NCBI RefSeq assembly: GCF_947331435.1 | Contig: NZ_CAMZOF010000013.1 | Coordinates: 124,001 to 188,000, forward strand | Source: Pelagibius sp. Alg239-R121 | Lineage (GTDB): Bacteria > Pseudomonadota > Alphaproteobacteria > Kiloniellales > Kiloniellaceae | Direction: 5' to 3' | Length of the DNA: 64,000 nt | Part shown: piece after piece, positions 7,067-42,518 of the stretch | Layout of the letters: every line of letters starts with the position of its first letter | Numbering within the stretch: position 1 is the stretch's first letter | Program-made: the position numbers and the translations under genes | The notes under the pieces: model-generated | What the model was told of the DNA's origin: nothing | What the model saw: only the letters and a program-made list of their open reading frames with translations | The model's database searches: none

Positions 7067-7086
7067 TGTCCATAGTGTTATGGACA
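7067..7086. promoter_or_regulatory. Perfect palindromic operator candidate upstream of the DMGDH-MttB-TetR operon
   Basis: TGTCCATA-GTGT-TATGGACA: 8-base arms, fully complementary, 4-base spacer, 110 bases before the DMGDH/GcvT start codon. Size and symmetry suit a TetR dimer. A TetR-type regulator is encoded as the third gene of the downstream operon, so autoregulation is the simplest reading (inference). It could equally control the divergent hydrolase gene. Confidence 0.55.
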
Positions 7087-7196
7087 AGAGTGTCTAGAGT
7101 CTGATCGTTACTCACCCGTCAGCGAAAAACGTGAATCAGACTTGCAGTAAGGAGCGGCCGGAAAGGCCGCCGTGCTGTCGTTTCAGGGAGGATGGA

Positions 7197-9617
7197 ATGA
7201 AGTCGCACTATCGGGTTGTCGTGATTGGTGGTGGGGTCGTCGGAGCGTCGGTGCTCTATCATCTGGCCAAGTTCGGCTGGAAAGATGTCGCTCTGATCGA
7301 GCGATCGGTCTTGACGGCGGGTTCAAGCTGGCATGCCGCCGGCGGATTTCATGCTCTGAACGCGGATCCGAACATCGCCGCGCTGCAAGCTTATACCATC
7401 GACCTTTTGTCGGAGATTGAGAAAGAGTCCGGACATTCGGTCGGCATGCACATGACCGGCGGTCTCACGCTCGCCGGAACGGAAGACCGATGGGAATGGC
7501 TTCAATCGGCCTACAGGGTTTTTCAAAGTCTCGGCATTGAAGACGTGCGCCTCGTAACGCCGGAGGAGGCCGGTGCGCTCTGCCCGGTGATGTCGACCCA
7601 TGGGATTTTGGGCGGCATGTGGGCGGATCGGGAAGGCTATATCGATACGACCGGCACGGTTCATGCCTACGCAGGGGCGGCCCGGAAGAACGGCGCGGAA
7701 GTGATTGAGCACAACCGGGTATTGGAGCTGCAGCAGATTCCCGAAGGCTGGCGGCTGGTTACCGAAAAGGGCACCGTTACCTGCGAACACGTGGTCAACG
7801 CGGCCGGTCTCTGGGCCAAGCAGGTCGGCCGTATGGCGGGAATTGAACTTCCCGTATCGCCGCTGGAACACCATTACCTGCTCACCGAGACTATTCCGGA
7901 AATAGCCGCGCTCGATGGAGAGTTGCCGCTGGTCGTGGACCTGGAGGGCTTTACCTATATGCGCCAGGACTTGAAGGGCATGCTGTTGGGGATTTATGAG
8001 ATCCGGCATAAGCACTGGATGATGGATGGCGCGCCCTGGAACTACGGTATCGAGCTGCTGCAGGAAGACATCGACCGCATCGAAGACGAACTCACTCTCG
8101 GTTTTGAGCGCTATCCCGTTCTGCAGCATGCCGGGGTCAAGAACTGGGTCAACGGGGCTTTCACATTCTCTCCCGACGGTAACCCGCTGGTCGGCCCCGT
8201 TCCCGGCAAACCGGGTTACTGGTGTGCCTGTGCCGTGATGGCCGGATTCCTTCAGGGAGGCGGGGTTGGCAAGTCGCTGGCGGAATGGATGATCCACGGT
8301 GAACCGGAGGCGGATGTTTTCGGCATGGACGTTGCCCGTTACGGCGATTTCGCGGCGAACAAGCGATTCATTAAAGAGACGACCGGACAGTTCTATACCC
8401 GGCGCTTCGTCATGACTTATCCCAACGAGCAGTTACCGGCAGGCCGGCCTCTGAAGATGGCGCCTGCGCATGATGCCATGACGGATGCCGGATGCCGCTG
8501 GGGCGCCAGCTGGGGGTTGGAGGTGCCACTGTATTTCGCGCCCGAAGGATTTGAAGAGACACCATCACTCAAGAGATCGAACGCGCATGACATCGTCGGG
8601 GCGGAATGCCGTGCCGTGCGCGAAAACGTCGGGTTGCTCGATATTTCCGGCTTTTCACGGTTCGAAGTCAGCGGCCCGAACGCCGAACGCTGGCTCGACC
8701 GGGTGATGGCCTCAAAACTTCCGGCTCCGGGTCGGGCTAAACTGGCGCCCATGCTGTCACCGGAAGGCAAGCTGAAGGGCGACCTCACCCTCTTTAACTG
8801 GGGCGACGGCACCTGGTGGATCATGGGGTCCTACTATCTGCGCGCCTGGCACATGCGCTGGTTCGATCAATACATGGAGGACGGCGTTGTCGTGCGTGAC
8901 ATCGCGGATGATATTGTCGGGTTTTCGCTGGCTGGTCCGAATTCTCTGAAGGTCCTCGAAACTCTCACCGACGGTCCGGTCGGCGAGCTGCCCTTCATGG
9001 GCTGCGGTCAATTCGACATGGGATTGGTTCGTGCAAAGGTCGGGCGCTTGTCGGTGGCCGGCGAGCTCGGCTACGAAATCCACTGCCACGCCGCCGAGCA
9101 TATCGGATTGCGGCGCCTGCTCCTGGAAGCAGGGGCTGATCATGGCATCGCGGAATACGGTTTCAATGCTCTGCTGAGTCTGCGGCTGGAGAAGAGTTTC
9201 GGAATCTGGTCCGCTGAATTCACCCAAGGTTACACGCCGCGGCAGACCGGCATGGACCGCTGGATCGACTGGCAAAAACAAGAATTCGTCGGCCGTGACG
9301 CTGCAATAAAAGAACGCGATGGCGCCCAGGAGGGGCAGGTCCTGGTGACGCTTGAAGTTGACGCTGCGGATGCGGATGCGAGCGGCTTCGAGCCGATCTG
9401 GTCGGGCGACCGGCGAGTCGGCTTCGTCACGTCCGGCGGATACGGACACAGCCTTTCGAAATCGCTCGCAATGGCGCTTGTCGATCACGACCTGGCGCAA
9501 GTCGGGCAGGAACTAAGCGTTCATATCGTGGGCGCCGAACGGCCGGCAAAGGTGATCTCGCCGTCTCCCTACGATCCCCAGGGCCTCGCCATGCGTGGCA
9601 AAAGGGTCGCAAGCTGA
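7197..9617 (+). CDS. Dimethylglycine/sarcosine dehydrogenase-like FAD oxidoreductase fused to GcvT domain
   Basis: 806 residues. The start at 7197 has CAGGGAGGA 5-9 bases upstream; an earlier in-frame ATG at 7131 lacks one. The N-terminal Rossmann motif VVVIGGGVVG (7-16) is followed by GSSWHAAGG, whose His46 matches the covalent FAD-binding His of dimethylglycine dehydrogenase. The DAO-type domain runs to about residue 390. An FAO/GcvT-N domain (about 430-700) and GcvT C-terminal barrel (about 705-800, with VGFVTSGGYGHSLSKSLAMALV) complete the DMGDH plan. Such enzymes oxidise N-methyl groups in the cytosol and pass formaldehyde to tetrahydrofolate. It is the first gene of an operon; its stop overlaps the mttB start by one base. 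The methylated substrate is unknown. Confidence 0.9.
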   Translation: MKSHYRVVVIGGGVVGASVLYHLAKFGWKDVALIERSVLTAGSSWHAAGGFHALNADPNIAALQAYTIDLLSEIEKESGHSVGMHMTGGLTLAGTEDRWEWLQSAYRVFQSLGIEDVRLVTPEEAGALCPVMSTHGILGGMWADREGYIDTTGTVHAYAGAARKNGAEVIEHNRVLELQQIPEGWRLVTEKGTVTCEHVVNAAGLWAKQVGRMAGIELPVSPLEHHYLLTETIPEIAALDGELPLVVDLEGFTYMRQDLKGMLLGIYEIRHKHWMMDGAPWNYGIELLQEDIDRIEDELTLGFERYPVLQHAGVKNWVNGAFTFSPDGNPLVGPVPGKPGYWCACAVMAGFLQGGGVGKSLAEWMIHGEPEADVFGMDVARYGDFAANKRFIKETTGQFYTRRFVMTYPNEQLPAGRPLKMAPAHDAMTDAGCRWGASWGLEVPLYFAPEGFEETPSLKRSNAHDIVGAECRAVRENVGLLDISGFSRFEVSGPNAERWLDRVMASKLPAPGRAKLAPMLSPEGKLKGDLTLFNWGDGTWWIMGSYYLRAWHMRWFDQYMEDGVVVRDIADDIVGFSLAGPNSLKVLETLTDGPVGELPFMGCGQFDMGLVRAKVGRLSVAGELGYEIHCHAAEHIGLRRLLLEAGADHGIAEYGFNALLSLRLEKSFGIWSAEFTQGYTPRQTGMDRWIDWQKQEFVGRDAAIKERDGAQEGQVLVTLEVDAADADASGFEPIWSGDRRVGFVTSGGYGHSLSKSLAMALVDHDLAQVGQELSVHIVGAERPAKVISPSPYDPQGLAMRGKRVAS

Positions 9618-11164
9618 TGGTGGAGGCTGACTCCAGACAGGAAAGACGTGGGCGGCGGCGAAGTCGCTCTGCGGCTCCCAGGGCGCAGCGCGTCACTGAC
9701 TACCACAATCTGCGCAACCCATTTCCGCCCATGGCGGTCTTCAGTGATGACCGGATCGAGGCGATTCACGACGCCGCCCTGAAACTGTTGCAGGAGCTTG
9801 GGATCAAGGTTCTGCTTCCCGAGGCACGCGACTTGTTCCGTGCGGGCGGGGCCAGTGTGGATGAGACCAGTGAGATGGTCTGTATCGGCCGCGAGATGAT
9901 CGAGGCCGCGCTCGAAAGCGCGCCAAAATCCTTCGTGATCCATGCCGGCCGCCAGGAGAAGGACATTCTGCTCGCGCCCGGGCAACTCGTGTTCCAGTCC
10001 GGTGCGGGCGCGCCTCATGCTACGGACCGGGAGCGCGGCAGACGGCCGGGCACCCTGAACGACTTCTGCGAGTTTGTGCGGCTCACCGAGCACTTCGATG
10101 TGCTCCAGATGGTGCCGCCGGTGGTCGAGCCGCAGGATGTGCCCATTCATCTGCGGCACTATGAGACGGCGCTGGCACAGCTGACCTTGTCAACCAAGGT
10201 GCCATTCGTCTTTTCGAGGGGTACGCCGCAGGTGACGGAATCTTTCGAGATGATCCGGGACTTTCGCGGTCTTTCCGATGCAGAGTTCCATGCCAGCAGT
10301 CACTGCTACACCATCATCAATACCAATTCGCCACGTCAGATCGATATCCCGATGGCCCAGGGCCTGATCGATTTCGCCAGGGCCGGACAGGTCTCCATCG
10401 TGACCCCCTTCACCCTGATGGGAGCGATGGCGCCCATCACCGTCGCCGGCGCGATCACCCTGTCGCACGCTGAAGCGCTTGCGGCGATCGCCCTGACCCA
10501 GCTGGTCAAGCCGGGCGCGCCGGTCTCCTACGGCACCTTCACGTCGAACGTGGACATGAAGTCGGGCGCGCCCGCTTTCGGGACGCCGGAGCATTTCCGC
10601 GCCAGTCTCGCCGCTGGGCAGCTTGCGCGGAAAATCGGCCTGCCCTGGCGCAGCGCGACCGGCAGTGCCGCCAACATCAACGACGCGCAGGCAGCCAACG
10701 AGACCCAGCTCGGCCTTTGGGGTTGTTTGCTCGCCGGCTCGACCATCGTCATTCACGCGGCTGGCTGGCTTGAAGGCGGCCTGACGGTGTCGTTTGAGAA
10801 ATTCGTGACCGACTGCGAGGTCCTGCAGATGGTGGCCGAACTCTGCTCCGAGGCGCAGGCCGGTGACGACGAGATCGCGCTCGAGGCCCTGTCAGAGGTC
10901 CAGCCTGGCGGACATTTCTTCGGTGCAACGCACACCATGGAGCGCTATCAGACGGAGTTCTACGAACCCTTCCTGCATAGCTGGGCGAACTTCGGCACCT
11001 GGACGGAACGGGGTGCCAAGGACGCGGATCAACGCGCAACGGAAGTCTGGAGAGAGATTCTCGCGACATCCCCGAACCCTGAAGTCGATCCGTCACGGGC
11101 CGAGGCCCTGCAGAATTACATCGAGGCGCGCGCAGAGGCGGGTGGCGCGCCGCCGGAGAGTTAA
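9617..11164 (+). CDS. Trimethylamine methyltransferase (MttB) family protein, non-pyrrolysine
   Basis: 515 residues, the full length of the MttB family, with no in-frame amber codon, so this is the pyrrolysine-free branch typified by glycine betaine methyltransferase MtgB. An Arg-rich N-terminal tail (about 8-25) precedes the TIM-barrel domain beginning near NPFPPMAVFSDDRIEAIHDAAL. Conserved patches include TPFTLMGAMAPITVAGAITLSHAEALA and FGTPEHFRASLAAGQLARKIGLPWRS. Family members transfer a methyl group from a quaternary or tertiary amine to a corrinoid protein. No corrinoid protein (MttC) gene is in this window. The ATG overlaps the upstream dehydrogenase stop (TGATG), implying translational coupling and a joint pathway. 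A downstream TetR gene follows after 4 bases. Confidence 0.88.
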   Translation: MVEADSRQERRGRRRSRSAAPRAQRVTDYHNLRNPFPPMAVFSDDRIEAIHDAALKLLQELGIKVLLPEARDLFRAGGASVDETSEMVCIGREMIEAALESAPKSFVIHAGRQEKDILLAPGQLVFQSGAGAPHATDRERGRRPGTLNDFCEFVRLTEHFDVLQMVPPVVEPQDVPIHLRHYETALAQLTLSTKVPFVFSRGTPQVTESFEMIRDFRGLSDAEFHASSHCYTIINTNSPRQIDIPMAQGLIDFARAGQVSIVTPFTLMGAMAPITVAGAITLSHAEALAAIALTQLVKPGAPVSYGTFTSNVDMKSGAPAFGTPEHFRASLAAGQLARKIGLPWRSATGSAANINDAQAANETQLGLWGCLLAGSTIVIHAAGWLEGGLTVSFEKFVTDCEVLQMVAELCSEAQAGDDEIALEALSEVQPGGHFFGATHTMERYQTEFYEPFLHSWANFGTWTERGAKDADQRATEVWREILATSPNPEVDPSRAEALQNYIEARAEAGGAPPES

Positions 11165-11168
11165 AACT

Positions 11169-11852
11169 ATGTGCGCAGCCAAAGTCACGCCTCTGCCAAC
11201 GCAAGACGACGGCCAGACTGACAGCCTGCCGGGCAATGTAAAGGTCATGCGTCAGGACTGGTTGAATGTCGCCATGGACCTGCTGGTCAGTGACGGCGTC
11301 GAGCAGGTCAAGGTTCTGACCATCGGGGAACGCCTGGAGGTGTCGCGCTCGAGCTTCTACTGGTATTTCAAAAGCCGGCAGGATCTGCTCGATGCCCTGC
11401 TCGAGCACTGGGAGCAAACCAACACCGCCGCCTTGATCGGGCAGTCGAAGGCGCCTGCAGAAACCATTACCGAGGCGGTCTGCAATGTCTTTCGCTGTTT
11501 CGTCGATCCCTCGCTCTTTAACAACGCTCTCGACTTCGCGGTGCGCGAATGGGCGCGGCGTTCGGGCAAGGTGCGCACCGTCCTGGACCGCTCCGACAGC
11601 GCAAGGATCGGGGCTCTGGAGGAGATGTTCAGGCGTTTCGGCTATCCCCAAAAGGAATCTCTCGCCCGTGCGCGGACACTCTACTACATGCAGATCGGCT
11701 ACAACACGGCGGACCTCAAGGAAGACATGAGCGAGCGCCTGAAGCTGCTGCCCGACTATCTGGTCGCGTTCACCGGCAAGAAGGGACGGCCCAAAGAGAT
11801 CCGCGCGTTCGAGGTCTTTGCAAAATCGGTTGAGGAAAGGACAGTCCAATGA
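11169..11852 (+). CDS. TetR/AcrR family transcriptional regulator
   Basis: 227 residues. After a polar tail of about 30 residues comes a TetR DNA-binding domain: MRQDWLNVAMDLLVSDGVEQVKVLTIGERL, then the recognition helix region VSRSSFYWYFKSRQDLLDALL, matching the YYHFKSKEDLL signature. The remaining 150 residues form an all-alpha ligand domain typical of the family. The start at 11169 is four bases after the mttB stop; the stop overlaps the next ATG (ATGA). Its position inside the DMGDH-MttB-oxidase operon suggests it senses the methylated amine or a product and controls this operon, probably through the palindrome at 7067-7086 (inference). Confidence 0.88.
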   Translation: MCAAKVTPLPTQDDGQTDSLPGNVKVMRQDWLNVAMDLLVSDGVEQVKVLTIGERLEVSRSSFYWYFKSRQDLLDALLEHWEQTNTAALIGQSKAPAETITEAVCNVFRCFVDPSLFNNALDFAVREWARRSGKVRTVLDRSDSARIGALEEMFRRFGYPQKESLARARTLYYMQIGYNTADLKEDMSERLKLLPDYLVAFTGKKGRPKEIRAFEVFAKSVEERTVQ

Positions 11853-13156
11853 GTCAGTCGCCGGATGCCATCATCATCGGAACGGGCGTTATCGGAACGG
11901 CGGTGGCCTTCGAGATGGCGAAAGCCGGCTGGAAGACTCTGTCGCTCGACCGGAACCGGCAGATCGGACATGGCTCCACCGCCGGCTCCTGCGCGATCAT
12001 CCGAATGCACTATTCCACATTCGACGGGACGGCTTTTGCCTGGGAGGGCTATCACTATTGGAGGGACTGGCCGGACTATTTAGGCCTTGGTTCGGATACG
12101 GACCTGGCCAAGTTTCTGGAGGTCGGCTGCCTCGTCATGAAGACAGATGCCAACGGGCACCTGTTCAAACATATTGAAAACAGTGCCGCGCTGGACTGTC
12201 CGTTCGAGGAATGGTCCGCTGAAAGGATCATCGAAAAACTACCGATCTATTCGCTGGAAAGTTATGCCCCGGCGAAGCGTAGCGATGACCCGGCCTTCGG
12301 ACTGCCCAACGACACGCAACTCAAGGGCGGCGTCTACTGGCCTAAGGCCGGTTATGTTACGGATCCGGCGCTTTCCTCGCAAAATCTGGCCGATGCGGCG
12401 AAACTGCACGGTGCGGAATTCCGCCTGGGTGTGGAGGTTTCCGAAATCCTCAGCGAGGGCGGGAAGGTGCGGGGCGTGCGGCTGACCGGCGGCGAGGAGA
12501 TACATGCGCCTGTCGTGATTAACGTGGCCGGGCCGGGCTCCTCGATCATCAACCGGATGGCCGGCGTGCTCGACGATATGACCATCGAAACGCGCCCCCT
12601 GCGTCAGGAGGTCGTGCACGTACCCGCGCCGGAAGGCTTCGATTTCGAAGCCGACGGCACCATCGTTTCGGACAGCGACATCGCCTGTTACTGCCGCCCG
12701 GAACACGGCAACCATATCCTTGTCGGCAGTGAAGATCCGCCCTGCGATACCCACCAATGGGTCGAGGACGATAGCGACTACGACCGCAACTTTTCCGACC
12801 AGTGGACGACGCAGGCCATGCGCTACGCCCAGCGCGTGCCAGGCCTTAAGATCCCGAACAGAACCCGCGGCGTGGTCGATCTCTACGACGCCTCGACCGA
12901 CTGGATTCCGATATACGACAAGTCGTCGCTCGATGGCTTCTATATGGCCTGCGGGAGCTCGGGCAATCAGTACAAGAACGCCCCCATCGCCGGAAAGCTT
13001 ATGGCGGCCCTGGTCGACTACTGCGAAAACGGCAATGACCACGACTCGGTGCCCTTGCAGTTTACGCTGCCCTATATTCAACGGGGCATCGACGTGGGCT
13101 TCTATTCCCGTAAGCGCCCGATTAACCAGGAATCGAGTTATTCGGTTCTGGGGTGA
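11849..13156 (+). CDS. FAD-dependent amino-acid/amine oxidase (DAO family)
   Basis: 435 residues. The N-terminal dinucleotide motif is AIIIGTGVIGTAVAFEMAKAGW, followed by DRNRQIGHGSTAGSCAIIR, the usual FAD-contacting segment of DAO-type sarcosine/glycine oxidases. The C-terminal FAD motif is FYMACGSSGNQYKNAP. Length matches monomeric sarcosine oxidase and sarcosine oxidase beta-like proteins. It would oxidise a secondary amine or N-methyl amino acid, delivering electrons to oxygen or an acceptor. The ATG overlaps the TetR stop, placing it as fourth gene of the methylated-amine operon; a sequential role after the MttB and DMGDH steps is inferred. No GcvT domain is attached, unlike the other three oxidoreductases in the window. 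Confidence 0.87.
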   Translation: MSQSPDAIIIGTGVIGTAVAFEMAKAGWKTLSLDRNRQIGHGSTAGSCAIIRMHYSTFDGTAFAWEGYHYWRDWPDYLGLGSDTDLAKFLEVGCLVMKTDANGHLFKHIENSAALDCPFEEWSAERIIEKLPIYSLESYAPAKRSDDPAFGLPNDTQLKGGVYWPKAGYVTDPALSSQNLADAAKLHGAEFRLGVEVSEILSEGGKVRGVRLTGGEEIHAPVVINVAGPGSSIINRMAGVLDDMTIETRPLRQEVVHVPAPEGFDFEADGTIVSDSDIACYCRPEHGNHILVGSEDPPCDTHQWVEDDSDYDRNFSDQWTTQAMRYAQRVPGLKIPNRTRGVVDLYDASTDWIPIYDKSSLDGFYMACGSSGNQYKNAPIAGKLMAALVDYCENGNDHDSVPLQFTLPYIQRGIDVGFYSRKRPINQESSYSVLG

Positions 13157-13292: not shown

Positions 13293-14636
13293 ATGGCAGC
13301 ATTGTGGAACGTCGATGTCCTTTCCTGCCGGGGCAGTTCCTATGACGTCGGGCGGCAGGTCGCGGAAGGCTTTCGAAAGACACCGCGTGGCCGCGCCTTC
13401 AAGCGCCGTAAGGAACGCCGCCCCTTTGCCTTCAGCCTGAAGAATGCGGAGGCCGCTCTGACGATGTACGCACCGAACATCTGGGAGGAGCTGCATGGTC
13501 TCGCGGATGGTTTGGAGATTTCTCTAGAGCGCGCGGTCGCCGAGTTTTCCAATGGCCGCCTGCGTTATCCCAAACGCGGTTGCTCGGCGGTCATGACCGG
13601 CGGGCTTTACGGACGCAACTACGACTTCTCACCCAAGCGCTACGACCGCCTGCTTGTCGCCATTCAGCCCGATGGCGTGAACGCGAGCATCGGCTTTTCC
13701 GACCGCTTCACCGGGCGCGACGACGGCATGAACGAGCATGGTCTTTGCGTCGGCCTGCACTATGTCAATGAAGCCAACTGGCAGCCCGGGCTGGTCTGCA
13801 TTCTGATCGTCCGGATTCTGTTGGATCAGTGTGCGAACACGGCAGAGGCCGTGGATCTGGCAAAACGTTTGCCGCACGGGCTCGGTTTCAACTACTCCAT
13901 GATCGATGCGCTGGGGAACGCGGCCGTGGTCGAGGCCTCGCCCGCCGGGATTGCCGTACGCCAGGGCGCGGCGCTCGCCTGTACCAACCATTTTCAGTCG
14001 GCGGATCTGCAGGATCAAAACCGGCGGAACGCTGGCTCTTTCCGGCGGCTCCCAACACTGGAGGCCTGGTCGCAGGAATTGATCGCGGCAGAGGATTTGT
14101 TCTTTCGGCTCAATGCCTCACGCTCACCGGTCTTCGCACATGGCTACACACGCGGCGGCGGCACGCTGCACAGCTTCGTCTGCGAAGCTTCACGGCGGAA
14201 GATGCTGGTTGGCGTTGGCGGCGATGCCACGCCGATGCAACTCGACTTCGGTGCCTGGGTGACGGGCAGCGATCTTACGGTCGCGCAACTGACAGGCCAA
14301 CTGGGTGGTAGGCTCAAACCCTTTGATCCAAGCCGGCGCGCCCGAAAAAACCCAGCAAGTGGGGGCGCTGAATCCGAAAAAACCTTCGTCGATGCCGACC
14401 TCAGCGGTGCCAGCTTCAAAGACGTGTCGTTAAAGGACGCACTCTTTGAGAACGCCAATATGGCCGGCGCAAAATTCACCGACATAAACCTGGCCGGCGC
14501 GCGCCTCGACAACATCAATCTTTCCGACGTCGAGATCACCCGGAACTGTAACTTCAAGGGCATGACCATAGCGGGTGTGCGTGTGCAGGATTTGTTTGAG
14601 GCCTACAGAAATCGTGGATCAGCGAAGGACTCGTGA
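13293..14636 (+). CDS. C45 family acyltransferase/peptidase fused to pentapeptide repeats
   Basis: 447 residues. Residues 1-340 match the acyl-CoA:6-aminopenicillanic acid acyltransferase (peptidase C45, Ntn-hydrolase) family: GSSYDVGRQVAEGF near the N-terminus, then RGCSAVMTGGLYGRNYDFS where Cys97 is the predicted autoproteolytic nucleophile, and NEHGLCVGLHYV. Residues 365 to about 430 are a run of pentapeptide repeats (DADLSGASFKDVSLKDALF and onward, A(N/D)LxG type), about twelve units. The family cleaves or transfers acyl amides. AGGA lies 8 bases before the ATG. It follows the methylated-amine operon after 136 bases and may belong to it. The repeat fusion is unusual and could mediate dimerisation or surface attachment. 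Substrate unknown. Confidence 0.85.
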   Translation: MAALWNVDVLSCRGSSYDVGRQVAEGFRKTPRGRAFKRRKERRPFAFSLKNAEAALTMYAPNIWEELHGLADGLEISLERAVAEFSNGRLRYPKRGCSAVMTGGLYGRNYDFSPKRYDRLLVAIQPDGVNASIGFSDRFTGRDDGMNEHGLCVGLHYVNEANWQPGLVCILIVRILLDQCANTAEAVDLAKRLPHGLGFNYSMIDALGNAAVVEASPAGIAVRQGAALACTNHFQSADLQDQNRRNAGSFRRLPTLEAWSQELIAAEDLFFRLNASRSPVFAHGYTRGGGTLHSFVCEASRRKMLVGVGGDATPMQLDFGAWVTGSDLTVAQLTGQLGGRLKPFDPSRRARKNPASGGAESEKTFVDADLSGASFKDVSLKDALFENANMAGAKFTDINLAGARLDNINLSDVEITRNCNFKGMTIAGVRVQDLFEAYRNRGSAKDS

Positions 14637-34189: not shown

Positions 34190-36619
34190 TTAAACGGGTG
34201 CAGCCGTTCCACGCAGCTTCAGGTTCTCAGGGTCGTAGGGTGCTTTGGATAGTCTCCGGGCCGGATAACGCTGCCCGCAAATCTCGACAGATAAGTCGTG
34301 AATCTTTTCGGGCTGGCCGGTATCGATGTAGGCCAGAGCCAGACTCTTGGCGGTCCGGTGTCCATATGCGCCGGATGTGACCAGTCCGCAGACGCGGTCC
34401 CGGTCAAAGAGCGGATGCAGTGCAAAGGCATCCACCTGACGGGTATCGATTTCGATAAGCTGTAGTGACATTTCAATCGCCCGTGTTTTGATGGCGTCGC
34501 ATCCGGTAAAGGTTCGCCCGTCGAATTTCACGAACCGATCGAGGCCGGCTTCGAACGGCGAGCGTTCGGTCGAAAGATCCATCCCCCAGGCGGGATAGCC
34601 TTTTTCGAGCCGCAGGGAATTGATTGCGAAGGCACCGAAGGGGCTAATGCCGAACTCGCGTCCTGCCGTCAAGAGGCTGCGGTAAATTTTGTGTAAAACG
34701 CCTTTGTCCGCGTGCAGTTCCCAGCCGGTTTCGCCGACGTAGGAAACCCTGATTGCGAGTACCCTGAGACCATTAACGTCAATCTCCTGCGCACTCAGCC
34801 ACGGAAAGTCATCGGCGGAAAGGTCGCTGCCGGTGAGACTTTGAAGTACCTCAGGCGCACTTGGTCCCATCAAGGCGATGACGCCCTTGCTTTCCGTGAT
34901 GTCAGCTATCCCAACACCCTCGTGCGACACGCCGATCCGGCGGAGCAGATCGTGATCCTGCCGGCGCGCCGCAGCCGCCGATGTCAGATAAAAACGGTCT
35001 TTGGACAGCCGGACCACTGTGAATTCAGATGCGACCCCGCCGCTCTTTGTAAGGGAGTGAATGAGGCCGACCCGGCCGTTGATCCTTGGCGCACTATTGG
35101 CTCCGAGCTGCGCCATGAATTGCGATGCCTGGGGACCGGAGATCTCGAACTTCGAAAAGACCGACATATCCGCGATGCCGACCCGCTGCGATACGGTTGC
35201 GCATTCACTGGCGACGGCGTCGAACCAGTTGGCGCGACCAAAGCCGAGTGTGGACTGGCGAGCGTCTCCTGCGGGCGCAAACCAGTTGGGACGTTCCCAG
35301 CCGTAGGCTTGGCCGAAAACGGCGCCGGCGGCATCCATTTCGTCGTGGATCGCAGAAGTCAGGCGGGGCCGTCCGGCTTCGCGCTCTTCAAAAGGAAAAT
35401 GTATGGCGAATTGATTGCCGAAGCTCTCGATTGCCTTGTCAATCCTGTAACTGCGATCAGCAAAGGCGCCGAAGCGGCGCGGGTCGAGGGCAAGGGCGTC
35501 CATCGGTGCTTCGCCGCCGACGATCCATTCGGCAAGAAATTTACCGGCGCCGCCTCCTTCCATCACGCCCATACTGGAGCCGGTGAGCAGCCAGCAGTTA
35601 TCGAGCCCGAAGGCGGGTCCGATCAGTGGGTTGGCATCTGGTGTGAAAGTGATCGGCCCGTTGACGACAGTCTTGATGCCGCCTTCGGCGAGGACCGGTA
35701 TCCGCTCCATCGCAGCGGTCACGATGTGTTCGACATCATCGAGAGCGGACGGCAGCAGTTCCATCCCGAACTCCGGCGGAACCTGATCGACAGACCAGGG
35801 CTTTCCGGTTTTCTCGTAAGGCCCAATGATCAGACCATCGCGCTCCTGCCGCACGTACCAGCTTTCCTCCGGATCGCGGATGATCGGCAGTTCCTGCTCC
35901 AGAGCGGCGACGGCTTCGATGCGGTCGGTTACCAGGTACTGATGAAGGATTGGAACGACCGGAAGCTCAAGTCCCGCCATACATCCGATCTCGTAGGCCC
36001 AGGTTCCAGCCGCCATGACGATGTGTTCGGCGTCGAATTCGCCTTTGTCGGTGCTTACCCGCCATTCGCCTGATGACCTTCGCGCGAGACCGGTCACCAG
36101 TGTGTGCCGCAGGATCCGCGCGCCATTATTACGAGCCCCTTGGGCCATGGCGTGTGTGGCTTGCGAAGGATCCACGTGACCGTCGAGCGGTTCGTGAATG
36201 GCGCCGACGATCCCGTCCAGTTCGACCAGAGGGTAGATGTCCTTTAACTCGCTCGGCGAGAGGAGATTGAAGTCGAAGCCGGAGTACTTGCCAATGCCCT
36301 TGACGTGCCGGAACTCATCCATGCGATCCTTCGAGCGCGTGATCCGCAGAGCGCCGGTCTGGTGGAAACTCACAGGGCTTCCGGTCTCTTGTTCCAGCTC
36401 GCCCGAGTAAAGCCGCACCGAATGGGCACGCAGGGCCTGAATGGTGAGATTATGGGCGAAGTGAGTGCAAAGACCGGCAGCGTGCCAGGTCGAGCCGGCG
36501 GTCAGTTCGTTCTTTTCGATCAACAGCACGTCCCGCCAGCCGAGCTTGGCGAGATGGTAAAGCGCGGAGACACCCATGGCGCCACCGCCGATAATAATCA
36601 CGCGCGCCTGTTGGGTCAT
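34190..36619 (-). CDS. DMGDH-like FAD oxidoreductase with GcvT domain (second copy)
   Basis: 809 residues. Rossmann motif VIIIGGGAMG (7-16) and TAGSTWHAAGL with His46, the covalent FAD-attachment His of dimethylglycine dehydrogenase. FAO-M and GcvT domains follow (about 430-800), with TEFTVVRLSKDRFYLTSAAA and VCGLVTSGAYGHRTAKSLALAYID. The domain order equals mammalian DMGDH and bacterial N-methyl amino-acid dehydrogenases. It is second in a minus-strand operon; its ATG overlaps the stop of the upstream paralogue by four bases. The pair probably forms a complex or acts successively on two methyl groups of one substrate, passing one-carbon units to tetrahydrofolate. Substrate undetermined. Confidence 0.9.
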   Translation of the reverse strand: MTQQARVIIIGGGAMGVSALYHLAKLGWRDVLLIEKNELTAGSTWHAAGLCTHFAHNLTIQALRAHSVRLYSGELEQETGSPVSFHQTGALRITRSKDRMDEFRHVKGIGKYSGFDFNLLSPSELKDIYPLVELDGIVGAIHEPLDGHVDPSQATHAMAQGARNNGARILRHTLVTGLARRSSGEWRVSTDKGEFDAEHIVMAAGTWAYEIGCMAGLELPVVPILHQYLVTDRIEAVAALEQELPIIRDPEESWYVRQERDGLIIGPYEKTGKPWSVDQVPPEFGMELLPSALDDVEHIVTAAMERIPVLAEGGIKTVVNGPITFTPDANPLIGPAFGLDNCWLLTGSSMGVMEGGGAGKFLAEWIVGGEAPMDALALDPRRFGAFADRSYRIDKAIESFGNQFAIHFPFEEREAGRPRLTSAIHDEMDAAGAVFGQAYGWERPNWFAPAGDARQSTLGFGRANWFDAVASECATVSQRVGIADMSVFSKFEISGPQASQFMAQLGANSAPRINGRVGLIHSLTKSGGVASEFTVVRLSKDRFYLTSAAAARRQDHDLLRRIGVSHEGVGIADITESKGVIALMGPSAPEVLQSLTGSDLSADDFPWLSAQEIDVNGLRVLAIRVSYVGETGWELHADKGVLHKIYRSLLTAGREFGISPFGAFAINSLRLEKGYPAWGMDLSTERSPFEAGLDRFVKFDGRTFTGCDAIKTRAIEMSLQLIEIDTRQVDAFALHPLFDRDRVCGLVTSGAYGHRTAKSLALAYIDTGQPEKIHDLSVEICGQRYPARRLSKAPYDPENLKLRGTAAPV

Positions 36620-39072
36620 GAGCCATTTTCTTTCGTCGTGCCGCGCATGCGGCTGCCGTTTGGATCGTAAGGTGACCTGGCAAGAAGCCGAAGGGGGTGG
36701 CGCTTACCTGCGATCGAAACTTCGAAGCTGCTCGCAGAAAGCGCGTCCAGGGTTTCGCCTTTCTCCAGCGCGAGGTAGCCCATGCAGAGCGACAGGCCTG
36801 TGCGGAAACCCCGTGCCCCCGAGGTGGTATGCCCCGCAAGTTTTCCGTCACGGAACAGAGGTTCGTCATGCAGCAGAAGCGGGTGGCCGTCCTCGACGGC
36901 GAACTGTAACAGCTGCCGTTCGATGCCCGTTTCGCGCTGCCGTTCAAGCACGCTGCGGCCAATAAAATTATCGGGTTTTTTCCATGAGACCGAAAAGCCG
37001 AGACCGGCTTCCAGCGGTGTGTCTTCAGGGCCGATATCATGACCCCAGTGGGGAAAGCCCTTCTCCATGCGACAACTGTCGACGGCATGCAGACCCATTG
37101 GACGCAGGCCAAGCGGCTGGCCTATATGAAGGAGGTGCTCCGCGAATGCAGCAGCTTCGTTCCATGGCAGATAAAGCTCCCAGCCGAATTCACCGATAAA
37201 GCTCAACCGGGTGGCTCTCAGCCTCGTGTTGCCGAGCATGTACTGGGCTGATGCACCGAAGGCCAAAGCGAGGGCACCCGGATCGCCACCGGCAGCAGAC
37301 CAGATCTCCGGTGCCTTCGGGCCCATCAGGCCGAGCACGGCATGGGAACGGGTCTTGTCGTGGACGATGACCGGGGTCAGGTGCCGTTCCAGCCAGGCGA
37401 GGTCCCGGCGCCTGGAGGGCGCGGCACCAACCAGGAGAAATCGATCTTCAGCGAGCCGTGTGACCGTCGCGTCGGCTTCGATCCCGCCTCGTTGGTTGAG
37501 TAACTGTGTGTAGACGCTATGACCCGCTGCAACATCCATGTCGGCTGAACAGACCTGCTGAATATTTGCGAGGGCTGCGGAACCCGAGATGCTGAACTTG
37601 GAAAAGGGGCTGAGGTCGATCAGAACCGCGGCGTCGCGGGCTGCGAGACACTCTTGCTGTGCTGCCGGCCACCAGGTTTGATCGCCATAACTGTATCGTT
37701 CCTCATTGACGCGGGAACCAGCGGTAAACCAAAGCGGACGTTCCCAGCCTGCGGGCGAACCGAAGGTGGCACCTGCATGGCGCCAGACCTCGTCGCAGGG
37801 GAGGCGGCGAAGACCTCGTCCCGTCTTCATGCGCTTGTAAGGCCAATGCATCTCAAACTGACTGGCGACCGCTTCCTGTGTTCTGGAAGTAAGGAATTTT
37901 GAATCCGACATGTCGGATTCAAATCGGGTGATATCGACATCGGCAAGATCCATTGGCGGACTGCCGTCGAGGACCCAATCGGCCATGACCTTGCCGGCAC
38001 CGGCTGAGGAGACGATGCCGATGGAGTTGAATCCGGCGGCTACGAAGTAGTTCCGGCATTCCGGTGCTTCACCCATGATTTGTTTCGTATCAGGGGTGAA
38101 GCTCTCGGGCCCATTCATGAAGTGCTGAATGCCGCTGTCGTTAAGGGCAGGAATGCGGTTTAGGCCCGCCAGCATGAAAGGCTCGAACTGATCCCAGTCC
38201 TGTGGAAGCTCGAGGAAGGGCACATTGCCACTCTCAGCCTCGACGTCGAACAGCTTGGCGTTGAGCTCGAACCCGCCTAGGACGAGGCGTCCGGCGTCCT
38301 CCTTGATGTAGATGCGGGCGTCGAGATCGCGGACGATGGGGCAGGGCCGGGGTAGATCGGAGATGGGTTCGGTCACCACATACATATGCTCCACCGCCTG
38401 CAGCGGAATGGCGACCCCTGTACTGGCACCCAGTTCGTGCGCCCAGGCACCTGCACAGTTGATCACGGTCTTGCAGCGAATGTTCCTGCCATCCGCGAGC
38501 GCCACTGAATGCACAGCGTCGCCACGTGTGTTCACGGTCTCAACCGGTGTGTTTTCGAAAATACGCACGCCAGCCTGACGCGCAGCCCTAGCGTAGGCCA
38601 TGCAGACATCGACCGGGTTTGCCTGTCCGTCCTCTTCGACCCAGAGGCCGCCCGCAAGATCCCCGGTCTCAAGCAGAGGCAGCCTTTCCTGAACCGCGGC
38701 CCTGTCCAATATTCTCGTCTCGAGCCCGGCCAGGAGTCCCATGTCAGCGGTGCGCTTCAATTCGGTCATGCGGTCGGTGGTCTGCGCCAGCCAGAGGCCG
38801 CCCGTACGCTTGTAACCCGTTGATTGCCCGGTTTCGCGCTCCAACCGCGCGAAAAGGTCAATGGCGTAGACCGACAGTCGGGTCAGGTTCATGTTCGCCC
38901 GCAGAGGACCTATGATCCCGGCGGCGTGCCACGAAGTTCCGCTGGTCAGTTGATGCCGTTCGAGCAGAATTACATCCTGCGCCCCGCGCCAACCGAGATG
39001 GCAAGCCACAGACAGGCCAATGACACCGCCTCCGATGATGACGATTTCGGCGCTTTCTGGAACGCTAGCCAT
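36616..39072 (-). CDS. DMGDH-like FAD oxidoreductase with GcvT domain (third copy)
   Basis: 818 residues from ATG 39072; a longer frame back to 39183 has no conserved residues and would run over the LysR box. Rossmann motif IVIIGGGVIG (10-19); TSGTSWHAAGI with covalent-FAD His49; DAO domain to about 420; GcvT part at 440-818 with EADATVTRLAEDRFLLVGAA and PLLLHDEPLFRDGKLAGHTT. It is clearly related to, but divergent from, its tandem neighbour. First gene of a two-gene operon, divergent from the LysR gene at 39218, which is its likely regulator. An MttB gene lies 2 kb further on. Family certain; substrate is a methylated amine or amino acid by inference. Confidence 0.9.
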   Translation of the reverse strand: MASVPESAEIVIIGGGVIGLSVACHLGWRGAQDVILLERHQLTSGTSWHAAGIIGPLRANMNLTRLSVYAIDLFARLERETGQSTGYKRTGGLWLAQTTDRMTELKRTADMGLLAGLETRILDRAAVQERLPLLETGDLAGGLWVEEDGQANPVDVCMAYARAARQAGVRIFENTPVETVNTRGDAVHSVALADGRNIRCKTVINCAGAWAHELGASTGVAIPLQAVEHMYVVTEPISDLPRPCPIVRDLDARIYIKEDAGRLVLGGFELNAKLFDVEAESGNVPFLELPQDWDQFEPFMLAGLNRIPALNDSGIQHFMNGPESFTPDTKQIMGEAPECRNYFVAAGFNSIGIVSSAGAGKVMADWVLDGSPPMDLADVDITRFESDMSDSKFLTSRTQEAVASQFEMHWPYKRMKTGRGLRRLPCDEVWRHAGATFGSPAGWERPLWFTAGSRVNEERYSYGDQTWWPAAQQECLAARDAAVLIDLSPFSKFSISGSAALANIQQVCSADMDVAAGHSVYTQLLNQRGGIEADATVTRLAEDRFLLVGAAPSRRRDLAWLERHLTPVIVHDKTRSHAVLGLMGPKAPEIWSAAGGDPGALALAFGASAQYMLGNTRLRATRLSFIGEFGWELYLPWNEAAAFAEHLLHIGQPLGLRPMGLHAVDSCRMEKGFPHWGHDIGPEDTPLEAGLGFSVSWKKPDNFIGRSVLERQRETGIERQLLQFAVEDGHPLLLHDEPLFRDGKLAGHTTSGARGFRTGLSLCMGYLALEKGETLDALSASSFEVSIAGKRHPLRLLARSPYDPNGSRMRGTTKENGS

Positions 39073-39149
39073 GGATTTCCCGGGTTGTGAATCTGAGTCG
39101 CACAATAGAAGGACGGGATGTGCTTGCGACGCAATGGGATGCATCCAAA

Positions 39150-39164
39150 ATAAGAATAACTTAT
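39150..39164. promoter_or_regulatory. LysR-type binding box
   Basis: ATAAG-AATAA-CTTAT: perfect 5-base arms around 5 bases, containing the T-N11-A LysR motif. It lies 78 bases before the DMGDH operon start and 54 bases before the LysR start, the usual placement for a LysR recognition site. Confidence 0.6.
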
Positions 39165-39217
39165 GATGGTTTCTCAAGGTCAATCATCCGACAATTCGGG
39201 ATGAGGAAAGCAATGCG

Positions 39218-40207
39218 ATGAGGCGCTCGAGCTTCGATTTCAATCTGATGCGTGCGCTGGAGGTCTTTGCGGCGATCGTCGAGACACGCAACATCACCAA
39301 GGCCGCGCAGATGCTCGGCATAACTCAGTCCGCGGCCTCCCAACACCTCGGGTCGCTGGAACGCGCCTTTGCGACCAAACTGATAGACCGCTATGCCCGG
39401 CCGATCGAACTCACCAAGTCGGGGGTGGTATTGCATGGCAAAACCGGGCTTATCCTCAGTGAAGTCGAAGATTTGCGTTCCAAAATGCGCCGGGTGGAGA
39501 GTGCGCCGGTGCCTTATTTGCGGGTTGGGATGCTGGCCTCGATCGCCACCACACTCATGCCGGTTGTGACGGAGTTCGCCAAGCGGCAAGCCATTCCGGA
39601 AGTCGCCTGTTTCGCGGGTCTGGCCAGTGATCACACCGACCTGCTGCGCAACCGGCGCGCCGATATGGTGGTGACGTCCGATGCGCTCTACGACACCAGC
39701 GGGCTCGAACGCTTTCATATTATGAGCGAGGCTTTTCTGCTGATCACGCCTCGCGGATTTACCGGCCCAAAGGATGATTTGGCGGAATTGGCTCAGCAGC
39801 TACCGCTTGCTCGCTTTTCCGACTCAACCCCGGTCGGACGGCGGATCGACCAGCACCTGCGGCGCCTGCGTCTCGATCTGGTGCGTGTGATGCAGGCAGA
39901 CCGGGCCAGCATGGTGACGGCTGCCGTTCATGCCGGCCATGCCTTTGCCATCATGAGTCCGACACTGCTGCTCGATGCGGTGCAGGAAGGCATGAAGCTG
40001 GAGATCTCGCCTTTGCCCGTGGTCGGATTCCGGCGGGAAATCACTGTGGTCAGCCGGGCCCGTGAGCTCGGCGATCTCCCTGAACGTATGGCGGTTTCAA
40101 TTGCCGAGAGGCTGCAGCAGACAATCGGTGACTTGGGGGCACTCTGTGCCGAAGCGTCTGACTTTGGCGAGGCGGGCCCGATGGATAAATCAGAGGCAAT
40201 CTTATGA
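39218..40207 (+). CDS. LysR family transcriptional regulator of the DMGDH operon
   Basis: 329 residues. Winged HTH at 1-65: FDFNLMRALEVFAAIVETRNITKAAQMLGITQSAASQHLGSLERAF. The effector domain follows, with LRVGMLASIATTLMPVVTEFAK. The start at 39218 has GAGGAAAG about 8 bases upstream. It diverges from the two tandem DMGDH genes across a LysR box at 39150-39164, so activation of that operon by a methylated-amine ligand is the natural reading. Its stop overlaps the sulfotransferase start by four bases (ATGA), an unusual translational coupling of a regulator to an enzyme. Confidence 0.9.
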   Translation: MRRSSFDFNLMRALEVFAAIVETRNITKAAQMLGITQSAASQHLGSLERAFATKLIDRYARPIELTKSGVVLHGKTGLILSEVEDLRSKMRRVESAPVPYLRVGMLASIATTLMPVVTEFAKRQAIPEVACFAGLASDHTDLLRNRRADMVVTSDALYDTSGLERFHIMSEAFLLITPRGFTGPKDDLAELAQQLPLARFSDSTPVGRRIDQHLRRLRLDLVRVMQADRASMVTAAVHAGHAFAIMSPTLLLDAVQEGMKLEISPLPVVGFRREITVVSRARELGDLPERMAVSIAERLQQTIGDLGALCAEASDFGEAGPMDKSEAIL

Positions 40208-40968
40208 GCCATCCGATCGTAGCGCTTTGGGCCCATCCGCGTTCCATGTCGACCGCGACCGAGCGGATCATGCGCGAGCGCGGTGACTGCGAAGTGTTCC
40301 ACGAACCCTTTCTGGCAGACTACTACCTTCATCGGTCGGTCCGGCCGTTGCCGATGCTGGACGAAGAAAAGACCGCACCGATGGACTATAACGACGTGCG
40401 TTCAATGCTGTTGGAGGCAGCCGACGCCGGGCCCGTATTCTTCAAGGACATGAGTTACTATGTGGTGCCACGGATCTTTGAGGATGAGGCTTTTGCGCAC
40501 CGGCTGTGCAATGTCTTTTTGGTTCGCGACCCACGACGGTCGATCGCTTCCTACTATAAACTCGATCCCCAACTGTCGCTGACAGAAATTGGAATTGAGG
40601 CCCAGTGGCGGCAATTTTGCTTCCTGCGAGACGCGCTCGGCGCCCAGCCGCTTGTGATTGAAGCGGAGGCGGTTTCCGAAAACCCGAAGAGCGTTATCGG
40701 CCGGCTTTGGGAATTTGCTGATCTGCCTTTCAAGAAAGAAGCTTTCGAATGGCGGACCAGCGACGTGCCTGAAGGCTGGCAGCATGTCGAGGGCTGGCAC
40801 GCGGATGTTCTCTCCTCCAGCGGTATCCGTAAGGATGCATCTGATCCGGACGCGGTATTCGAGGCCGCGGCGGCAAAGGCACCACATCTCAAGGATTTCC
40901 TGGAGCATCATTGGGGCTTCTATGAACGCTTAAAGGCCCAAGCTGGAACATACTCCGTTCAGGCGTAG
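40204..40968 (+). CDS. Sulfotransferase family protein
   Basis: 254 residues. The 5'-phosphosulfate-binding loop is visible at the N-terminus, VALWAHPRSMSTATERIM (Pro-Arg-Ser-x-Ser-Thr), and the 3'-phosphate-binding region as NVFLVRDPRRSIASYYKL. These mark PAPS-dependent sulfotransferases or homologues; the length fits bacterial single-domain members. The acceptor cannot be deduced. It is coupled to the LysR gene through an ATGA overlap and converges with mttB, overlapping its 3' end by 10 bases. Related short sulfotransferase-like proteins are sometimes found with amino-acid or amine metabolic genes. No PAPS-synthesis genes are present in the window. Confidence 0.82.
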   Translation: MSHPIVALWAHPRSMSTATERIMRERGDCEVFHEPFLADYYLHRSVRPLPMLDEEKTAPMDYNDVRSMLLEAADAGPVFFKDMSYYVVPRIFEDEAFAHRLCNVFLVRDPRRSIASYYKLDPQLSLTEIGIEAQWRQFCFLRDALGAQPLVIEAEAVSENPKSVIGRLWEFADLPFKKEAFEWRTSDVPEGWQHVEGWHADVLSSSGIRKDASDPDAVFEAAAAKAPHLKDFLEHHWGFYERLKAQAGTYSVQA

Positions 40969-42518
40969 CTGAGATCCGGTGCCTCGGATTTCCGCCGGGT
41001 TATGTAGTCTTCCAGTGCCTCGTCAATGGCGGGATCGAGCTGTGGTTGCTGGTAGTCCTGCAGCAGCTTCTTCCAGCGTTTGTTTGCGCGTGCCGCTGCG
41101 TCCTTGCTGCCATCCGAGACCCATTGTTCGTAGGAGTTGGCATCGGCGTTCTGCGGATAAAAAAAGGCAGTCTGAAAGTTTGCGTGGGTGTGGCTGCTGC
41201 CAAGAAAATGCGAACCGGGCCCGACCTCCTGGATGGCGTCCAGAGCCTGGGCCTTTTCCGACAGATCGAGACCCTGGGCGAAAGCAGCGACCTTTCCGCA
41301 GATGTCGGCATCCATGACCGCTTTTTCGAAACCGTGGACCAGGCCGCCCTCTAGCCAACCGCCTGCGTGATTGATGAAGTTGGCGCCTGCCATCACCGAC
41401 ATCATCAGCCCCCAGGTACCTTCCTCCATGGCCTGGCCGTCCGGAACTTTCGAAGACGTCAGAGCGCCCACCGTATGGAATGGGACGCCGAGACGGCGGG
41501 CGAGCTGCCCCGCCGCCAAAACAAGATGGGCACTTTCAGGAGAGCCGAAAGTCGGTGCGCCGGACTGCATGGAGATGGTGCTGGCGAAGGAGCCGAAGAG
41601 GCAGGGCGCGCCGGGACTAACTAACTGTGCTAGGGCGAGGCCGGCCTGGGCTTCGGCAAGAACCTGCGCAAGGGTGCCTGCCGCCGTACAGGGACTCATG
41701 GCACCGGCGAGCGTCCAGGGTGTGACCGCCACAGCCTGATTGTTGCGCGCGTAGACCTTTAAGGCGCCGGTCATGGCGCTGTCCCAAACCAGTGGCGCGT
41801 TGGAGTTGCTGACCGCATAGAGGCACGCGTTGTTGGCGACGAAATCCTCTCCGAAGACGATCTTGGCCATGTTGACCGAATCCTGCGCGCGCTCGGCACC
41901 GATGAGTGCGCCAAACACGGCCCGGTCGGAATAGCGGAAATGGCTGGCCAGCATATCCAGGTGACGCTTGTTGGCGGGCAGGTCCACCGGCTCGCAGATC
42001 ACACCGCCGGAATGGTGGTACTCAGGCAGCATGTGGCAGATTTTGATCAGCTTGCGGAAATCCTCGATGGTGCCATAGCGCCGTCCCTCGTCGAGATCGT
42101 GGATGAAGGGCGGCCCCCAACCCGGTGCAAGTACGGTGTTGCTGCCGCCCAGGATGATCGTGTTTTCCGAATTGCGCGCATGCTGTTTGAACTGAGCCGG
42201 CGCAGAGGTCGCGATGATGCTGCGGCAATGGCCTGGCTCGAAACGCACGAGTTCGCCGGAAACATCGGCGCCTGCATTTCGAAAAAGTTCCAGAATCTCC
42301 GGATCGTCGCGAAACTCGACGCCGATGTCCTTCAAGATCAGGTCGGCGTTGTGCTCGATCAGCTCAAGCCCTTCTTCCGAAAGGATATCGAAGGTGGAGA
42401 TCTTACGTTGGATATAGGGGGCCCGTACGGAGGAAGCTTGCAAGCGGCTTGCCCTGCGAGCCTGGCGCCCGCCGCCTGTTCGCCCTCGTGATCCACCTCT
42501 TGATTGGCGGCTCGTCAT
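40959..42518 (-). CDS. MttB family methyltransferase, non-pyrrolysine (second copy)
   Basis: 519 residues without an in-frame amber codon. An Arg/Gly-rich N-terminal tail (about 4-30, SRGGSRGRTGGGRQARR) parallels the Arg-rich tail of the first MttB in this window. The barrel starts near YIQRKISTFDILSEEGLELIEHNADLIL and includes VTPWTLAGAMSPCTAAGTLAQVLAEA and FGSPESAHLVLAAGQLARRLGVPFHT. Relatives transfer methyl groups from quaternary amines to a corrinoid protein, which is again absent nearby. It stands alone on the minus strand between the sulfotransferase (overlapping 3' ends) and the divergent aminotransferase, whose 182-base upstream region it shares. Confidence 0.88.
   Translation of the reverse strand: MTSRQSRGGSRGRTGGGRQARRASRLQASSVRAPYIQRKISTFDILSEEGLELIEHNADLILKDIGVEFRDDPEILELFRNAGADVSGELVRFEPGHCRSIIATSAPAQFKQHARNSENTIILGGSNTVLAPGWGPPFIHDLDEGRRYGTIEDFRKLIKICHMLPEYHHSGGVICEPVDLPANKRHLDMLASHFRYSDRAVFGALIGAERAQDSVNMAKIVFGEDFVANNACLYAVSNSNAPLVWDSAMTGALKVYARNNQAVAVTPWTLAGAMSPCTAAGTLAQVLAEAQAGLALAQLVSPGAPCLFGSFASTISMQSGAPTFGSPESAHLVLAAGQLARRLGVPFHTVGALTSSKVPDGQAMEEGTWGLMMSVMAGANFINHAGGWLEGGLVHGFEKAVMDADICGKVAAFAQGLDLSEKAQALDAIQEVGPGSHFLGSSHTHANFQTAFFYPQNADANSYEQWVSDGSKDAAARANKRWKKLLQDYQQPQLDPAIDEALEDYITRRKSEAPDLSYA

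Follow-up and report, generated by a model that had tools for sequence, protein, structure and literature searches.

A conserved DMGDH-MttB-TetR operon in Pelagibius sp. Alg239-R121 probably serves betaine catabolism through a shared, unlinked corrinoid protein

Which acceptor takes the methyl group from an MttB-family methyltransferase whose operon encodes no corrinoid protein? This question is raised by a 64-kb stretch of the 8.02-Mb genome of Pelagibius sp. Alg239-R121 (contig 13, 124001-188000; hereafter the window), in which four co-directional genes at 7197-13156 (+) encode a DMGDH-like FAD/GcvT protein, a non-pyrrolysine MttB, a TetR regulator and a DAO-type oxidase. An earlier note, made from the sequence of this stretch, had stated that no corrinoid protein gene occurs within 64 kb, and our search of the 64-kb window for B12-binding domains bears this out, as none was found. 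The note had left two ways out: an unlinked corrinoid protein could serve MttB, or the methyl group could pass to the GcvT domain or another acceptor.

The four-gene operon that had been proposed is confirmed by gene calls and Pfam domains. Its first gene (7197..9617, +), which begins with an ATG at 7197 preceded by GGAGG, encodes a putative DMGDH-like FAD/GcvT demethylating dehydrogenase of 806 aa with the architecture PF01266+PF16350+PF01571+PF08669 (DAO+FAO_M+GCV_T+GCV_T_C). It is followed by the MttB-family methyltransferase (515 aa; 9617..11164, +; PF06253, 678 bits), the TetR-family regulator (227 aa; 11169..11852, +; Pfam TetR_N) and the DAO-type FAD oxidase (435 aa; 11849..13156, +; Pfam DAO). 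Translational coupling holds for the DMGDH-like gene and mttB, whose stop and start overlap in TGATG at 9617, but not for mttB and the TetR gene, since the ATG of the latter at 11169 lies beyond a 4-nt gap without overlap; the start of the DAO oxidase gene overlaps the TetR stop (ATGA at 11849). Among 49 related loci, the DMGDH-like gene is immediately 5' of mttB in 45, a TetR gene is close by in 33 and a DAO oxidase gene in 16; DAO oxidase copies, 71-84% identical, stand after TetR in related operons. With such recurrence, the grouping reflects more than chance. Our survey of neighbours across the related loci found no transporter common to lineages besides the core genes, other shared clusters mostly resembling Ruegeria synteny, and the conserved neighbours gave no hint at the substrate. 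A literature search for a DMGDH-MttB-TetR operon found nothing specific. Directly 3' of the operon, at window 13293-14636 (+), stands a gene for a C45/AAT-type acyltransferase with C-terminal pentapeptide repeats, an unusual-looking fusion.

Across the whole genome we found 14 PF06253 (MttB) genes, two of them in the window, and two proteins with a B12-binding_2 domain: MetH, on contig C3, and one stand-alone corrinoid protein. The latter, MtgC (232 aa; C4:426878-427573), is the only stand-alone protein in the genome to combine B12-binding_2 with B12-binding, and its cobalamin motif is canonical, DxHxxG-(41)-SxL-(28)-GG. A genome scan for MttC-like corrinoid proteins, as the earlier note had advised, therefore yields one, on another contig. 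The mtgC gene heads a single-strand run that continues with genes for a DUF1638 protein, a 104-aa PF13769 protein, an MTHFR-family (MetF-like) protein, a pterin-binding methyltransferase (PF00809, mtgD) and a RACo-type (RamA-like) activase, such that the trans-acting components MtgC, MtgD, RamA-like activase, DUF1638 and metF-like gene are all present. The 104-aa PF13769 protein, encoded between the DUF1638 and MetF-like genes (G000:C4:425781-426095, equivalent to L022 8781-9095, -), carries the Pfam label 'Virulence factor', which is probably misleading for a protein of the mtgC run. The three same-genus genomes hold 5-6 MttB homologues against the 14 found here, a marked expansion beside a single MtgC.

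Such an arrangement has a precedent in the split methyltransferase/methionine synthase MtgBCD of Ruegeria pomeroyi DSS-3, another aerobic alphaproteobacterium, in which mtgC, mtgD, RamA, DUF1638 and metF2 are likewise unlinked and one such set serves several pfam06253 proteins (PMC12478193). The unlinked MtgC/MtgD system was shown there genetically: mutants in mtgC and mtgD lost the ability to make methionine as well as growth on glycine betaine, and the pfam06253 genes reported for a single genome number up to seven (PMC12478193). That MtgC is required for growth is described solely for R. pomeroyi on glycine betaine (PMC12478193). The window system differs from that of R. pomeroyi in that its MttB belongs to another clade, has an altered pocket residue and is encoded in its own DMGDH/TetR/DAO operon, and in that the genome also has MetH. 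By description, the system also resembles MtpB, MtcB and MtyB of Eubacterium limosum, where several MttB homologues that differ in the betaine they demethylate share one core corrinoid protein (summarized in PMC12478193), although E. limosum is an anaerobic acetogen.

The distribution of the two proteins across genomes points the same way. In a sample of 61 genomes of the order, MttB was present in 57, and MtgC was found in 53 of these 57 and in none of the four genomes lacking MttB. By hand calculation, the probability of finding all four genomes that lack MttB within the set of eight that lack MtgC is C(8,4)/C(61,4), or ~1.3e-4, a value that overstates independence as three of the four represent one genus. 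The MtgC search of the order gave no match in the MttB-bearing genomes G007, G015, G019 and G045; G007 and G019 are 96% and 90% complete, respectively, and the other two less than 80%. G007 and G019 encode three MttB proteins each, and the lack of an MtgC match in them could reflect an assembly gap or another corrinoid partner. In a second sample, comprising 46 other genomes reached via loci of the window MttB type or a close relative, MtgC was present in 46/46 at 77-87% identity, in one copy in 45 and in two in Mesorhizobium G064, and MttB proteins numbered 3-14 per genome. We sought among these 46 a genome with the window MttB type as its sole MttB and found none; since each has at least two other MttBs, the need of this type for MtgC is not isolated by the comparison. 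The second mtgC of the Mesorhizobium genome (L151; G064:C191:6878-7555) lies directly beside a gene for an MttB of another clade (7762-9255), possibly as a dedicated pair. A relative of the window MttB is encoded on each of twelve Leisingera plasmids, and mtgC occurs on no Leisingera plasmid in the collection; together with the genome-wide co-occurrence, this indicates that the unlinked arrangement is the normal one. In R. pomeroyi strain SZCCDBG043 the orthologue and mtgC are ~1.29 Mb apart, the distance having been compared for the match to SPO2108 or SPO2134. Service of MttB by an unlinked corrinoid protein, the first of the two ways out, is thus strongly supported by one MtgC with MtgD and a RamA-like activase and by the presence of MtgC in every genome of the second sample; it is most likely right and already precedented. 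With the apparent corrinoid gap resolved, no new chemistry is needed.

Could MttB instead use free cobalamin, or that in the cobalamin domain of MetH? MetH is present in this genome, and free cob(I)alamin serves an MtgB as methyl acceptor in vitro (PMC6855144), but a dedicated MtgC exists here alongside MtgD and an activase. Moreover, R. pomeroyi (G061) and Leisingera (G062) genomes carry the window MttB type, and in these the MtgC query found mtgC and no MetH-like match. We therefore regard this route as very unlikely.

The second way out, a corrinoid-free transfer of the methyl group from MttB straight to the tetrahydrofolate (THF) on the GcvT domain of its DMGDH-like partner, or to some other acceptor, draws on the tight pairing of the two genes, that is, on their coupling and on their adjacency in nearly all of the related loci. 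This pairing has another explanation in the DMGDH-like protein itself. The protein matches rat and human DMGDH at ~498 bits, and in an alignment with Arthrobacter dimethylglycine oxidase its His46, His225 and Asp529 correspond to His69, His225 and Asp552, which we take to be the flavin-linking, substrate-site and folate-site residues, respectively. With these residues kept, along with the DAO+FAO_M+GCV_T+GCV_T_C layout, the protein is predicted to be of the DMGDH/DMGO type and is expected to carry out oxidative demethylation with methylene transfer to THF, which would account for the pairing. In FAD and GcvT architecture and in the aligned His and Asp residues it is like the dimethylglycine dehydrogenase and oxidase of PDB 4PAB and 1PJ5, and it is unlike them in being encoded in an operon with MttB. 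DMGDH-like genes also stand within 2 kb of 6 of the genome's 14 MttB genes, and we conclude from this that the MttB/DMGDH pairing is one of pathway logic, in which the first methyl group leaves by the corrinoid route and the next by oxidation. At the level of the GcvT domain, nothing speaks for direct transfer, since this domain resembles a normal folate-dependent acceptor that takes up the methylene arising when N-methyl groups are oxidized. In addition, the occurrence of MtgC throughout the 46 genomes speaks against it and, to our knowledge, every characterized MttB homologue uses a corrinoid. We consider this reading scarcely credible, and return to the corrinoid route through MtgC.

If MtgC receives the methyl group, from which compound does MttB take it? 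The protein matches PF06253 over its full length (positions 1-499 of 500), has no in-frame TAG, and its loop at the position that pyrrolysine occupies in MttB has one residue fewer than that of MtgB, in agreement with its designation as non-pyrrolysine. In a tree of 88 MttB rows it falls into a 47-row clade (SH-aLRT 100), nested among roseobacter and related sequences. A close homologue is absent from the three same-genus genomes and present at 65% in one same-family genome, and this patchy presence, together with the nesting among roseobacters, suggests that the gene was gained horizontally. A separate, MtgB-like clade, outside which the window MttB lies, holds S. meliloti 4yyc, the paralogue at C4:346419 of this same genome and, from five genomes, the MttB proteins whose genes lie no more than about 14 kb from mtgC. 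The protein is of the same family as Desulfitobacterium hafniense MtgB (PDB 2QNE, 9YCE; E ~1e-75 over almost the whole length) and keeps three of the four predicted pocket residues; it differs in clade and in lacking Y94, and the Desulfitobacterium system has its own MtgC and MtgA. The pocket residues in question, Y94, N199, R309 and H345, come from a docking-based prediction of the glycine betaine site of MtgB (PMC6855144). N199, R309 and H345 are kept in 14/14 members examined of the window MttB's clade, this MttB included, whereas the Y94 position is Ala/Ser in 14/14 (Ala in the window MttB, which accordingly lacks the full predicted glycine betaine pocket) and Tyr in 10/10 of the mtgC-linked comparison clade.

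One possibility is that the window MttB is a second glycine betaine methyltransferase for other conditions, also acting via MtgC. Three of the four residues of the predicted site would fit, as would the DMGDH-like step, for which dimethylglycine would be a natural product to act upon, and R. pomeroyi has two pfam06253 proteins whose levels increase on glycine betaine (PMC12478193). We hold this to be unlikely, given how well the clade is separated from the mtgC-linked one, the consistent loss of the tyrosine, and the member of the mtgC-linked clade already encoded in this genome at C4:346419. The separate clade and the lost tyrosine of the docking-based pocket point to a different betaine, and the substrate is probably a carboxylate-bearing one whose shape differs from that of glycine betaine. 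It seems a reasonable expectation that the betaine demethylated by this clade is one not yet described as a substrate of any MttB. Homarine and trigonelline were considered as substrates, and no evidence was found for either.

We also examined how the operon may be regulated. A conserved motif at 7081..7096 (+), TGGACA-AGAG-TGTCTA (consensus TRGACA-N4-TGTCYA), forms a candidate TetR operator 101-116 bp upstream of the first ATG. Of 45 homologous operons, 21 have the consensus upstream of their DMGDH-like gene, where shuffled sequences give an expectation of 0.005; these copies share a common ancestry, yet their flanks, spacers and distances vary. Across the whole genome the consensus has 5 matches, compared with 3 for a backward control. 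Overlapping it at 7067..7086 is a perfect palindrome, TGTCCATA-N4-TATGGACA, to which the genome holds no other match even with 2 mismatches allowed. TetR probably represses the operon through this candidate operator, to which its binding is presumed. As for the earlier note's thought of a co-regulated MttC/RamA pair elsewhere, the pair is present, whereas a search of the 20-kb region of mtgC found no copy of the candidate operator, leaving co-regulation by this means unsupported.

Further loci of this kind occur in and beside the window. A second MttB (40959-42518, -; PF06253), missed by the earlier note along with two overlapping DMGDH-like genes (34190-36619 and 36616-39183, -), has Trp at the Y94 position and His at the R309 position; together, these genes at 34190-42518 (-) form a second candidate betaine-demethylation cluster. 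A little to the left of the window (G000:C13:119842-123320; L023 about 7842-9326 and 9209-11320) a third MttB, from a distant branch, is encoded beside a 703-aa old-yellow-enzyme-type flavoprotein (Oxidored_FMN + Pyr_redox_2).

Based on the observed gene content, co-occurrence, clade and operator conservation, we propose, with a probability of roughly 0.85, that the operon serves the breakdown of a quaternary-ammonium compound of the betaine type, with its MttB using the shared, unlinked MtgC. The catalytic steps that we infer are as follows. MttB would transfer the first methyl group to the cob(I)alamin of MtgC, the single stand-alone corrinoid protein of the genome, encoded on the other contig; MtgD would pass it from MtgC to THF, and the MetF-like protein could then oxidize the methyl-THF, while the RamA-like protein and DUF1638 would reactivate oxidized cobalamin. 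The remaining tertiary amine would undergo oxidative demethylation by the DMGDH-like enzyme, whose GcvT domain would give the carbon to THF as methylene, and the DAO oxidase would probably act on the last N-methyl group or amine, with TetR as the probable repressor at the candidate operator. For the organism, an apparent anomaly is thereby removed, and one MtgC is suggested to serve up to 14 MttB enzymes in a single genome. For the family, the pocket change suggests that the window MttB acts on some methylated compound that is not glycine betaine, within a DMGDH-MttB-TetR operon, often with a DAO oxidase gene, that is conserved with its candidate operator across many roseobacters.
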